A stretch of DNA of 44,544 bases from an uncultured Bacteroidia bacterium. GTDB lineage: Bacteria; Bacteroidota; Bacteroidia; Bacteroidales; UBA932. Below are positions 6,086 to 8,915 of this stretch, piece by piece. Made by a program: the position numbers and the translations under genes. The stretch's first letter is position 1. Every line of letters starts with the position of its first letter. The notes beneath the pieces were generated by a model. That model had not been told where the DNA came from, did not search any database, and was given only the letters and a program-made list of their open reading frames with translations. The DNA lies in assembly GCA_902772985.1 (NCBI GenBank), contig CACYCP010000005.1, positions 1-44,544 of the forward strand, read 5' to 3'.

Positions 6086-6430
6086 ATGTACAGTGAAGAT
6101 TTTGAACGGGGACGTCCCCAGGAGCGAGGCTCCGAAGATGTTTATTCCAAGCCGGTGCGCGCCGGAAAACGCACCTATTTCTTCGATGTAAAGAGCACGA
6201 AGGGGAATAACGACTTTTACCTTACCATTACCGAAAGCAAACGTCGTCAGGAACACGACGGAACTTTTACTTACGACAAACATAAAATCTTCCTCTACAA
6301 AGAGGACTTCGAGAAATTCCAGGAAGGGCTTCAGGACGCCGTCCGCTACATTATGCACGACCTCCTGCACGATGCTCCAATCCGCCAGTACCCTTCCAGG
6401 GAAGAAGGTTCGGAGGAAGAAGAGTTCTAA
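6086..6430 (+). CDS. DUF3276 (PUR-domain) nucleic-acid-binding protein
   Basis: A 114-aa cytoplasmic protein of the DUF3276 family, bacterial relatives of the eukaryotic Pur-alpha single-stranded nucleic-acid-binding fold. The PUR-repeat core is seen in VRAGKRTYFFDVKSTKGNNDFYLTITESK followed by HDGTFTYDKHKIFLYKEDFEKF; the tail is strongly acidic (EEGSEEEEF). The family is nearly universal in Bacteroidota; a Borrelia homologue binds DNA/RNA and regulates genes (family knowledge). It is monocistronic here: its own -7 box lies upstream and a strong terminator at 6437-6464 follows the stop. Confidence 0.9.
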   Translation: MYSEDFERGRPQERGSEDVYSKPVRAGKRTYFFDVKSTKGNNDFYLTITESKRRQEHDGTFTYDKHKIFLYKEDFEKFQEGLQDAVRYIMHDLLHDAPIRQYPSREEGSEEEEF

Positions 6431-6436
6431 TTCTTT

Positions 6437-6464
6437 AACCGGCATCGTGCGTGCCGGTTTTTTT
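6437..6464 (+). terminator. Intrinsic terminator after the DUF3276 gene
   Basis: An 8-bp perfect stem AACCGGCA/TGCCGGTT (6437-6444 with 6452-6459), a 7-nt loop and a run of seven T (6458-6464). It ends 11 nt before the first PNP start. Confidence 0.88.
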
Positions 6465-6475
6465 AGCTTTTATTT

Positions 6476-7309
6476 ATGGACCCCAGAATAGAAATTATCG
6501 ATAAGCTGTCAAATTTTCTGCAGCTTCGCCTGGACGGCCGTAAACCCCTTATAGGCATTGTCTTAGGCAGCGGCCTTGGCAAATTGGCCGATTTTATCAA
6601 AGATCCCCTTGTCATCCCCTACGGAGTACTCCCCGGCTTCCCGGTATCCACCGCCATCGGCCATAAGGGAAACTTCATCGTGGGTGAGCTGGGCGGCAAA
6701 TGCGTGATTGCAATGCAGGGACGAATACATTTTTACGAGGGCTACGGAATGGACAAGGTTGTCCTGCCCATCCGCCTTATGATAAGCACCGGAATCAAAA
6801 CCCTCATAGTCTCGAATGCCGCCGGCGGAGTGGGCTTTTCCCTCCACGTAGGAGACCTGATGGTAATAAAGGACCATATCAACCTCCTGCCAAACCCTCT
6901 CATCGGCCCGAATCTGGACCGTTTCGGACCGCGTTTCCCTGATATGACGCGCCCCTACGATCCGTCCCTTATCCATCTGGCCGAAAAGATAGCGGCCCAG
7001 GAAGGCATCACCCTCCGGAAAGGCGTTTATGTGGGCGGCACCGGCCCTTCGTATGAAACTCCGGCCGAATACAAGTTCTACCGCCACATTGGCGGAGATG
7101 CCGTGGGTATGTCCACAGTCCCCGAGGTCATCGTGGCACGCCACGCCGGAATCCCGGTTTTCGGCATTTCTGTCATTACAAACGAGGCACACGATGAATA
7201 TGCCGATGACTATGAAAACGACGGGAACGACGTTGTGGAAGCCGCAAATGCCGCGGCCGGCAAAATGACGGTACTAATTGAGAAAATGATAGAACAGATA
7301 CAGTTATGA
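6476..7309 (+). CDS. Purine nucleoside phosphorylase, copy 1 (Asn-type)
   Basis: A 277-aa trimeric-type PNP (NP-II/MTAP superfamily) that cleaves purine nucleosides with phosphate to base plus ribose-1-phosphate. Visible motifs: phosphate loop [11 protein letters not shown] (about residues 27-37), GHKGNF (62-67), GRIHFYEGY (82-90), SNAAGG (113-118), the base-site segment SYETPAE (192-198) and [12 protein letters not shown]. The specificity position equivalent to human Asn243 is Asn236 (in SVITNEAHD), which in characterised enzymes favours 6-oxopurines (inosine, guanosine). It overlaps the next gene, a roughly 65% identical paralogue by eye, by 4 bp (ATGA). It starts only 12 nt after a terminator, and no TAnnTTTG box was seen, so its promoter is unclear. 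Confidence 0.93.
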
Positions 7310-8139
7310 CATACCTGGACACCATCCATACTGCGGCTGAATACGTTCGCAGGAAAAATCCCAAATTTTCTCCCCTGGTGGGCATAGTCCTTGGAAGCGG
7401 ACTTGGAAAACTTGCAAAGGAAATAGAGGACCCCTATGTCCTCCCATACGGCAAGATTCCCGGCCTCCCCATTTCCACTGCCCTGGGCCACAAAGGCAAC
7501 TTCATCTTCGGCAATCTTGGCGGAAAGAGGGTGGTCGCCATGGACGGACGCATCCATTTCTATGAAGGCTACGGAATGAATCTGGTAACCCTTCCCATAC
7601 GTGTCATGCAGGTCCTGGGAATCAAATACCTCTTCGTTTCCAATGCCGCCGGCGGAACCAACCTGGACTACAACGTAGGAGACCTGATGGTTATTAAAGA
7701 CCATATCAACCTCCTGCCGAATCCCCTTATCGGCCCGAACCTGGAAAACTTCGGTCCCCGTTTTCCCGATATGACGCGCCCCTACGACCCGCAGCTCATA
7801 CGTGAAGCCGAAAGAATCGCAAAAGAGGAGGGCATACACCTGAGGAAGGGCGTTTACGTGGCCTGTTCGGGTCCTAGCTATGAGACTCCGGCCGAATACC
7901 GCTATTTCCGTTCCATTGGTGCCGATGCCGTTGGAATGTCCACCACTCCCGAAGTGATTGTGGCCCGCCACAGCAACATTCCGGTGTTCGGGATGTCTGT
8001 CATTACCGACGTTGCCCACGCCACCGATGACGAAGACTATGTAACAGACGGTGAGGCCATTGTGAAGGCCGCCGACGCTGCAGCCGACAAGATGAGCATT
8101 ATATTCAAGAAACTCATTGAGGGCTTGCAGGAAAGCTAA
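7306..8139 (+). CDS. Purine nucleoside phosphorylase, copy 2 (Asp-type)
   Basis: A second 277-aa PNP directly coupled to copy 1 by an ATGA overlap. All family motifs are present: [11 protein letters not shown] (26-36), GHKGNF (61-66), GRIHFYEGY (81-89), SNAAGG and SYETPAE (191-197). The position equivalent to human Asn243 is Asp235 (SVITDVAHA) instead of Asn, the substitution known from engineered human PNP and from MTAP to favour 6-aminopurines such as adenosine. I infer that the pair divides substrates between oxo- and aminopurine nucleosides. Long stretches are nearly identical to copy 1 at DNA level (the segment encoding [20 protein letters not shown]), pointing to duplication and possibly gene conversion. 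Confidence 0.92.
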
Positions 8140-8450: not shown

Positions 8451-8737
8451 TGGACCAGAAAATCAGCCTGAAAATAGCCGGACGCGCATACAATCTTACG
8501 GTATCAACCCCGGAAATGGAGCAACTGTACCGCAGGGCTGCCGACAACATCAACAACCGCTTCGCCAAATACACCAAGGAGCATCCCGGAAAGAATATCC
8601 AGGATCTCCTTTCCATGGTGGCACTCAGTGAAACCGTCCTGCGCCTTGGCATCCAGAAAGAGCTGGAGACGTCAAAGAGCGATGAACTTCAACTGGAGCA
8701 AGACCTGGCCCGCTATCTCAAGGAAACAGGAAAATAA
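8450..8737 (+). CDS. zapA: Cell division protein ZapA
   Basis: A 95-aa ZapA that binds and bundles FtsZ at the division ring. The N-terminal beta part (ISLKIAGRAYNLTVSTPEME) and the long helical C-terminal part (ALSETVLRLGIQKELE) match the family. I use the ATG at 8450, which overlaps the preceding stop by one base (TGATG), because an upstream in-frame ATG at 8423 would add nine residues lying inside the previous gene. A probable 6S RNA follows immediately. Confidence 0.88.
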   Translation: MDQKISLKIAGRAYNLTVSTPEMEQLYRRAADNINNRFAKYTKEHPGKNIQDLLSMVALSETVLRLGIQKELETSKSDELQLEQDLARYLKETGK

Positions 8738-8893
8738 GCCGTCAACCATCGAAAGCTGAAATCAACACGATTCAACGTGCCGGGTTGGCTCGGGCCGTGA
8801 ATGGCGTGCCCGCACTAATGGCGGGATACCTGAAGCGGCAGGCGCCCAAATCTTATTTTTTAAGATTTTCTGCAAGGATGTTGGCGGCTTTTT
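8738..8893 (+). ncRNA. ssrS: Probable 6S RNA
   Basis: The 178-nt gap between zapA and rny folds like 6S RNA. A closing stem pairs 8738-8750 with 8877-8888 (12 bp, one bulged C, one G.U pair). The middle is an open region, and the apical arm has CGU/GCG plus GCCG/CGGC pairing around 8777-8845 and a CCCGC/GCGGG hairpin near 8809-8825. The 3' side of the open region can form a perfect 8-bp hairpin, AAATCTTA/TAAGATTT (8848-8855 with 8861-8868), reminiscent of the release hairpin of 6S RNAs. A T5 run (8889-8893) follows the closing stem and would terminate it. zapA is the classic neighbour of ssrS in proteobacteria, and I recall the same order in Bacteroidota. No separate promoter was seen, so processing from the zapA transcript is possible. 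Confidence 0.65.
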
Positions 8894-8915
8894 ACATTAT
8901 AAAAACAACATATTT

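Follow-up and report, generated by a model that had tools for sequence, protein, structure and literature searches.

The closest described relatives of the locus presented here are the purine nucleoside phosphorylases (PNPs) of the trimeric, mammalian/Schistosoma type (TIGR01700/PRK08202). In PMC6128611, Asn245 of Schistosoma mansoni PNP1, the equivalent of human Asn243, is described as the main determinant of specificity for 6-oxopurines, and S. mansoni PNP2 is reported to keep the Asn and yet to cleave adenosine and inosine alike. A trimeric enzyme of A. migulanus likewise has slight adenosine activity; Asn at the specificity position is no absolute bar to adenosine. Exchanges of this residue are described in PMC5074518, according to which adenosine is no substrate for the wild-type PNP of K. 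lactis, whereas the N256D variant has a kcat/Km of 2.2e6 per s per M for adenosine versus 1.6e5 for inosine. Also cited there are a 5000-fold increase of the catalytic rate in human N243D and, for an adenosine phosphorylase of B. cereus, in which a natural Asp gives a preference for adenosine, the loss of this preference in D204N. As the K. lactis Asp mutant retains inosine activity, "adenosine-preferring and broad" is a safer description of an Asp enzyme than "adenosine-specific".

Two further systems resemble the locus at the level of the pathway. In Thermus thermophilus, PNP I and PNP II are one 6-oxopurine and one 6-aminopurine enzyme in the same genome, as described in PMC11430614 and PMC6302742. 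The latter paper also describes routes for MTA and 5'-deoxyadenosine in P. aeruginosa and M. jannaschii in which a deaminase acts before a phosphorylase.

The window analysed here is a stretch of 44,544 nucleotides from an uncultured Bacteroidia bacterium (contig CACYCP010000005.1), and it contains two overlapping PNP genes, hereafter copy 1 and copy 2. Both share the family, the catalytic Glu and the phosphate and ribose motifs of the trimeric PNPs; copy 1 also shares the specificity Asn, whereas copy 2 differs by an Asp and by co-varying changes in the pocket. The exchange is the same, at the same place, as in the engineered K. lactis and human enzymes, but it is natural here, affects one of two overlapping paralogues and is accompanied by further changes. 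Compared by description with the Thermus pair, the present genes are instead close trimeric-type paralogues in tandem; we take the Thermus adenosine enzyme to belong to the hexameric DeoD-type group, and the B. cereus adenosine phosphorylase to be hexameric and outside the trimeric PNP subfamily. The P. aeruginosa and M. jannaschii routes recall the neighbouring deaminase and PNP genes of relatives with an Asn enzyme only, whereas the window has no deaminase and carries an Asp paralogue instead. The biochemical principle of the residue switch is already known, while the natural, widely conserved tandem and the linked loss of a deaminase gene seem to be new, and no report of a natural Asn/Asp PNP tandem was found in the open-access library searched. 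With the effect of the residue already in print, what is of interest is the occurrence of the pair in nature and the gene loss linked to it.

Overlapping phosphorylase genes and their specificity residues

The features of the locus, all on the forward strand, are as follows.

6086..6430, +, DUF3276 (PUR-alpha-like) gene, a conserved upstream neighbour by which the locus is recognised (Pfam PF11680, 121 bits)
6437..6464, +, terminator-like hairpin (6437-6459) and T run, found in relatives just before the deaminase start and in the window just before copy 1
6465..6475, +, empty slot; relatives have an MTA/SAH-deaminase family gene of about 1.25 kb here
6476..7309, +, copy 1, trimeric-type PNP with Asn236, predicted inosine/guanosine enzyme (TIGR01700, PRK08202)
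7037..7039, +, Gly188 codon of copy 1, against Cys187 of copy 2 (7864-7866); separates the two gene lineages
7181..7183, +, Asn236 codon AAC of copy 1 (human Asn243 equivalent)
7217..7219, +, Asn248 codon of copy 1, against Thr247 of copy 2 (8044-8046)
7232..7234, +, Val253 codon of copy 1, against Ile252 of copy 2 (8059-8061); separates the two gene lineages
7306..7309, +, ATGA overlap of the copy 1 stop and the copy 2 start
7306..8139, +, copy 2, paralogue with Asp235, predicted adenosine-preferring phosphorylase (TIGR01700, PRK08202)
8008..8010, +, Asp235 codon GAC of copy 2, one A-to-G transition from AAC

The original prediction, made from the sequence alone, placed two PNP genes of 277 codons each at these coordinates with an overlap of 4 bp and an identity, judged by eye, of about 65%. 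The coordinates, lengths and overlap are right, both genes start with ATG, and the measured identity is 66% (179 of 272 residues). The paralogy of the two proteins was borne out, and both fall within the same trimeric PNP subfamily by profile. Copy 1 and copy 2 score 336.2 and 334.6 bits with TIGR01700 (curated cut-off 293.35) and 347.2 and 351.3 bits with PRK08202 (curated cut-off 218), and the hexameric DeoD-type family TIGR00107 is absent among the 11 NCBIfam families matching either copy at E <= 0.001. Because copy 2 lies above the cut-off of an inosine-/guanosine-specific model, annotation pipelines would give it a wrong name should it prove to be an adenosine enzyme.

Human numbering was reached through a sequence alignment with S. 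mansoni PNP1 (1tcu). In the printed phmmer alignments, no gap occurs between the GMST motif and the ITN/ITD motif, and Asn236 of copy 1 aligns on Asn245 of 1tcu, for which PMC6128611 gives the human counterpart; at the level of sequence, the predicted equivalence with human Asn243 therefore stands. The codons at 7181-7183 and 8008-8010 were also correctly assigned. The catalytic Glu (human Glu201) corresponds to Glu194 in copy 1, which aligns with the Glu of the GP.YE motif in 1tcu, and to Glu193 in copy 2. The 6-oxopurine-type Asn is thus present in copy 1 and replaced in copy 2, which is classed as a member of the trimeric PNP family and not as a 6-oxopurine enzyme. The phosphate and ribose motifs had been predicted to be the same in both copies; this is true of the motifs themselves, including GMST. 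Directly after GMST, however, copy 1 has Val where copy 2 has Thr, and the two gene lineages show further consistent differences near the base. The solved chains 8swt and 4lna carry Asp at the specificity position in the same alignments, so Asp-type members have already been crystallised; a search of the open-access literature by entry code gave no paper on either chain among the matches listed.

Downstream of the pair, between zapA and an RNase Y gene (8737-8895, +), a weak match to the Rfam family Bacteroidales-1, a suggested 6S RNA of Bacteroidales, was observed (26.6 bits against a gathering threshold of 60, E 0.098). No tRNA genes were found in the five loci scanned.

Distribution, divergence and history of the pair

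Copy 2 was used to scan 84,980 species genomes. This gave 271 relatives, of which the best 80 loci were read, and the tandem counts apply to these 80. The same Asn-then-Asp tandem is present in 28 other Bacteroidales loci, which belong to MAGs obtained, by their titles, mainly from ruminants. A more divergent Asn/Asp tandem follows the DUF3276 gene in six loci (L042, L044, L046 and L050-L052), and this gene also precedes the tandem in the other loci of the window's clade. Paludifilum halophilum (Bacillota; L076, 3920-5697) has an Asn/Asp tandem of its own in the same order. The Asn copy comes first and the Asp copy second in 35 of 35 measured tandems, comprising 28 of the window's clade (the window included), six of the second Bacteroidales group and the one Firmicute, so the order is not due to chance. 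Asp is found in 28/28 aligned second copies of the window's clade. In the Bacteroidales tandems the two genes overlap or are up to 23 bases apart, depending on the choice of start. In L021 (3472-4315) the first copy is split over two frames and the second is open; the former, as two fragments below 230 aa, was left out of the alignments and of the measurement of the 35 tandems. In L037, a locus additional to these 28, the contig ends inside copy 2, and this genome is still counted among the 30 pair genomes.

Asn and Asp types also occur on separate contigs, in G129 and in the genomes of L027, L035, L038, L040 and L055. From the window's family, 149 genomes were drawn evenly; 23 had no PNP match at E <= 1e-20, and the residue was read in the other 126. 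These comprise 89 genomes with Asn only, 30 with Asp only, four with Ser, one with Gly and two with both types, namely the window's genome and G129. The Ser or Gly was seen in L140, L143, L147, L157 and L160, all from one genus (g15), and an APRT match is present in 5/5. An entire Bacteroidota branch of this PNP family has Asp at the specificity position, and the notion that Asp is unique to the window was dropped, Asp being common in relatives.

The comparison of alignment columns covered 27 tandem copies with Asn and 28 with Asp from the clade, six of each from the second group, and in addition six unlinked copies with Asp and a further 104 with Asn. The two ingroup types are parted almost completely by five columns, at copy 1 positions 188, 236, 243, 248 and 253, the column of position 243 adjoining gaps. 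Position 248 is Asn in the Asn types and Thr in 96-100% of the ingroup Asp types. Positions 188 and 253 correspond, by the offset of the 1tcu alignment, to human residues 195 and 260, which we take to be base-pocket residues. The two copies of the window diverge most in the C-terminal base-binding region: their sliding identity reaches 0.93 in the middle of the protein and is 0.41-0.56 in the last three alignment windows, where orthologues show 0.67-0.91. Over the N-terminal 30 columns the identity of the copies is 0.05, and that of orthologues is also low (0.42-0.47).

Both copies are under purifying selection, with a median dN/dS of 0.126 for the Asn copies (15 loci; 98 of 105 pairs, 7 saturated) and of 0.132 for the Asp copies (15 loci; 91 of 105 pairs, 14 saturated). 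The idea that the Asp copy is a decaying duplicate was dropped in view of this value and of a reading frame that is open in the 35 measured tandems; it is further weakened by the fact that the sole broken copy noticed, in L021, is a first copy.

In the trees, identical proteins were counted once (196 of 204), and L019 therefore has no row of its own and is missing from the count of upstream neighbours. The careful trees were built with 98 of the 196 rows and with 84 rows, hand-picked for spread. In the maximum-likelihood tree built from 84 rows without the motif columns, 26 of 26 ingroup Asp copies form one group (93/97) among the Asn copies. Because its outgroup is the Asp-only branch (Prevotella, Chitinophaga and others), this tree is compatible with either Asn or Asp as the first state, and a constraint holding all Asn rows together was not rejected (AU p 0.071). 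The C-terminal half also gives one Asp clade (98/95), and the grouping of both copies of the window's clade is nearly rejected there (AU p 0.052). With the N-terminal half, in contrast, both copies of the window's clade fit as one group (AU p 0.42), and one Asp clade fits less well, though it is unrejected (AU p 0.14). When the paralogue-specific columns were removed, both of these histories, a separate duplication in the window's clade and a single Asp origin, went unrejected (p 0.414 and 0.302).

The conflict between the halves would fit gene conversion of the N-terminal part, or repeated duplication with a convergent pocket. It is possible, if somewhat doubtful, that the Asp copy has more than one origin, in that the window's clade duplicated its own gene and the base pocket converged; this history is the alternative to one duplication followed by N-terminal gene conversion, and is compatible with the division of labour proposed below. 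The N-terminal half and the tests without paralogue-specific columns are in its favour, as is the weakly supported grouping of the two Paludifilum copies with each other (95/47). The whole-length tree and the C-terminal half, which both unite the Asp rows, argue against it, as does the Asp subclade formed by L040's genome and the second tandem group, which mirrors an Asn subclade. The duplication of one ancestor, as originally predicted, thus agrees with the whole-length tree, but a separate duplication is unrejected without the paralogue-specific columns. As the tree tests are compatible with both histories, neither a single duplication nor gene conversion is claimed firmly.

Upstream deaminase gene and the purine pathway

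In relatives, a gene of about 416 codons lies between the DUF3276 and PNP genes. Its product is an Amidohydro_1 protein (207 bits for the L005 gene), and the best PDB match of the L005 gene is 4f0r, an MTA/SAH deaminase (E 7.9e-65), with TM0936 and others behind it. Among the matches listed (25 of 51), the NCBIfam hits of this gene all fall below their own cut-offs, so the exact substrate is not fixed by profile. We take this group of enzymes to deaminate adenosine-type nucleosides.

These matches bear on an alternative that we consider unlikely, namely that copy 2, like MTAP, acts mainly on 5'-modified adenosines (5'-deoxyadenosine from radical-SAM enzymes, or methylthioadenosine), the lost deaminase having been the former disposal route for 5'-deoxyadenosine, MTA and SAH. 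Such a role would agree with the best solved match of the deaminase and with the presence of 5'-deoxyadenosine deaminase among its profile matches. Both copies have Gly at the match of human His257, which we take to be the residue that binds the 5'-OH, and this could leave room for a modified substrate; the Gly is, however, common to copy 1. MTAP presumably has Asp at the specificity position (Asp220 in the human enzyme), as copy 2 has, but copy 2 is far from the MTAP profile TIGR01694 (78.9 bits, and 68.7 for copy 1, with a cut-off of 274.85). The three PF01048 genes of the window's genome, which are the PNP pair and a uridine-phosphorylase-like gene, include no MTA/SAH nucleosidase, and deamination followed by phosphorolysis is a known route for these compounds (PMC6302742). 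The present data do not separate adenosine from its 5'-variants.

In the family sample, the deaminase is distributed according to the PNP type. Counting as strong all but eight weak matches (E > 1e-90), 82 of the 89 Asn-only genomes have a strong homologue, six a weak one and one none, whereas 0/30 Asp-only genomes have any. This contrast represents one split on the tree and not many independent tests, and the view that many independent Asn/Asp changes back the link in single-copy genomes was dropped. Of the 83 Asn-only loci that extend far enough to show it, 75 have the deaminase immediately upstream of the PNP gene, as against 0/35 loci with an Asp copy only. Among 22 named loci with an Asp enzyme outside the pair clade, 20 are in genomes without a deaminase homologue and two in genomes with a remote one (25-27% identity). 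A full-length PF00962 adenosine deaminase is encoded in the genomes of 3/22 of these loci, all Flavobacteriales, and one Chitinophaga has a partial one; in a first set of 47 genomes, PF00962 matches were found in two, one partial (G153) and one below the cut-off.

Within the window's clade, the slot holds the deaminase in 22 of the 28 other tandem loci, and 24/30 pair genomes keep the gene. No homologue was found at E <= 1e-15 in the six others, which are the window's genome and those of L004, L019, L028, L036 and L039, against one of 89 Asn-only genomes (Fisher p 0.001), which is more independent evidence than the contrast between Asn-only and Asp-only genomes. L018 also has an empty slot, but in its MAG (G162) another contig carries a second PNP pair together with a deaminase. 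This genome, with two PNP pairs on different contigs and the deaminase beside one only, is possibly a mixed bin. By our reading of the trees, the absences in the pair clade need about five losses (the window; L004; L036; L028; and the L018/L019/L039 group).

The junctions left by these losses are not alike. The terminator hairpin precedes the deaminase gene in seven relatives (L005, L006, L007, L010, L011, L013 and L058), whereas copy 1 follows it immediately in the window and L004, and after a longer spacer in L019 and L039; it was not seen at the junctions of L028 and L036. The deletion scars therefore differ. In the window, the T run is followed after 11 bases by the start of copy 1. Within 6437-6475 (+), the terminator-like hairpin itself ends 16 bases ahead of this start, which leaves little space for a promoter or leader.

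The retention of the deaminase in most pair genomes would also suit a very unlikely explanation, according to which the two copies act on much the same broad set of substrates and owe their retention to dosage or regulation, the loss of the deaminase being unrelated. The co-directional, overlapping arrangement of the genes and the adenosine activity of some Asn enzymes are consistent with it. Nevertheless, the strict assignment of Asn and Asp by position in the 35 tandems, together with the co-varying changes in the pocket, argues against it, as does the strong alteration of specificity by Asn-to-Asp changes in trimeric PNPs (PMC5074518).

With regard to the rest of the pathway, the window's genome (1.80 Mb, 88% complete) contains an S-adenosylhomocysteine hydrolase (SahH) gene (586 bits), which is not special to pair genomes, being also present in Asn-only relatives. 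The same contig carries an APRT-like gene beside an IMP-dehydrogenase gene named from sequence. The former (L296 2666-3244, C57) is divergent, with 98.8 bits against a curated APRT cut-off of 185.85 and no Pfam match at E <= 0.001, and all 17 PDB chains matched are APRTs. Neither a PF00962 match nor a DeoD was found in this 88% complete genome. In the hand-picked sets, an APRT match at E <= 1e-15 is present in 26/27 genomes with both types, 5/14 with Asn only and 3/6 with Asp only. As the even family sample gives 14/30 Asp-only and 7/89 Asn-only genomes with such a match, APRT is not a constant partner of the Asp enzyme. DeoD-type genes, whose products can likewise cleave adenosine, occur in some pair genomes and were confirmed in two (L309 of G129 and L310 of G153). 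Of the deaminase-less pair genomes, G153 has this gene and the partial PF00962 match (80.9 bits), and G155 has a gene resembling DeoD.

Proposed division of labour

Based on these observations, we consider it probable that the two genes encode a PNP pair with divided base specificity, in which copy 2 has made the deaminase dispensable. The reading draws on the observed residues, gene order and conservation, on purifying selection, on the distribution of the deaminase and its absence from the slot, and on the SahH and APRT-like genes. The overlapping genes are probably transcribed as one mRNA and co-translated into a pair of trimeric-type PNPs. Copy 1, with its Asn, would convert inosine and guanosine, with phosphate, to hypoxanthine and guanine and ribose-1-phosphate. 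Copy 2, with Asp and further changes in the base pocket, would accept the 6-amino group and release adenine from adenosine, for which S-adenosylhomocysteine hydrolase may be one source among others, and the APRT-like enzyme would convert the adenine to AMP. In Asn-only relatives, the product of the upstream gene would first deaminate adenosine-type nucleosides. Copy 2 may have rendered this step dispensable, which could explain why the gene was deleted in the window's lineage and in several related ones.

The shift towards adenosine upon exchange of Asn243 for Asp, on which the original prediction relied, matches the published swaps in trimeric PNPs (PMC5074518). The predicted split between an inosine/guanosine enzyme and an adenosine enzyme is backed indirectly by these swaps, by the absence of the deaminase with Asp and by the APRT gene of almost every searched genome with both types, but the adenosine enzyme is likely to be broad. 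The missing deaminase gene and the occurrence of the pair in many species were not part of the original prediction.

Several observations count against this division of labour. S. mansoni PNP2, which keeps the Asn, and a trimeric enzyme of A. migulanus have adenosine activity, and 24/30 pair genomes retain the deaminase. Two of the six deaminase-less pair genomes (G153 and G155) have other routes for adenosine, 16/30 Asp-only genomes have no APRT match, and some genomes with an Asp enzyme outside the clade carry PF00962 or a remote deaminase homologue. In addition, the window's genome is 88% complete and its APRT-like gene is under the curated cut-off.

As a more tentative proposal, the residue equivalent to position 243 may act as a pathway switch in the PNPs of Bacteroidota, with Asn beside a deaminase and Asp without one. 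In lineages with both copies, about five independent deletions of the deaminase gene would then have taken place; within the tandems, conversion of the N-terminal half may homogenise the two copies, and selection may part their base-binding halves.

If the proposed division of labour is true, one residue would tell direct adenosine salvage from deamination in genomes of the window's group, and a curated inosine-/guanosine-specific model would wrongly name adenosine enzymes. The pair would also show a classic result of protein engineering occurring naturally and in replicate, the loss of a neighbouring gene being a consequence that can be seen in the genomes. An adenosine-type copy may thus have let a rumen-type gut bacterium and several of its relatives discard an older adenosine-processing gene.
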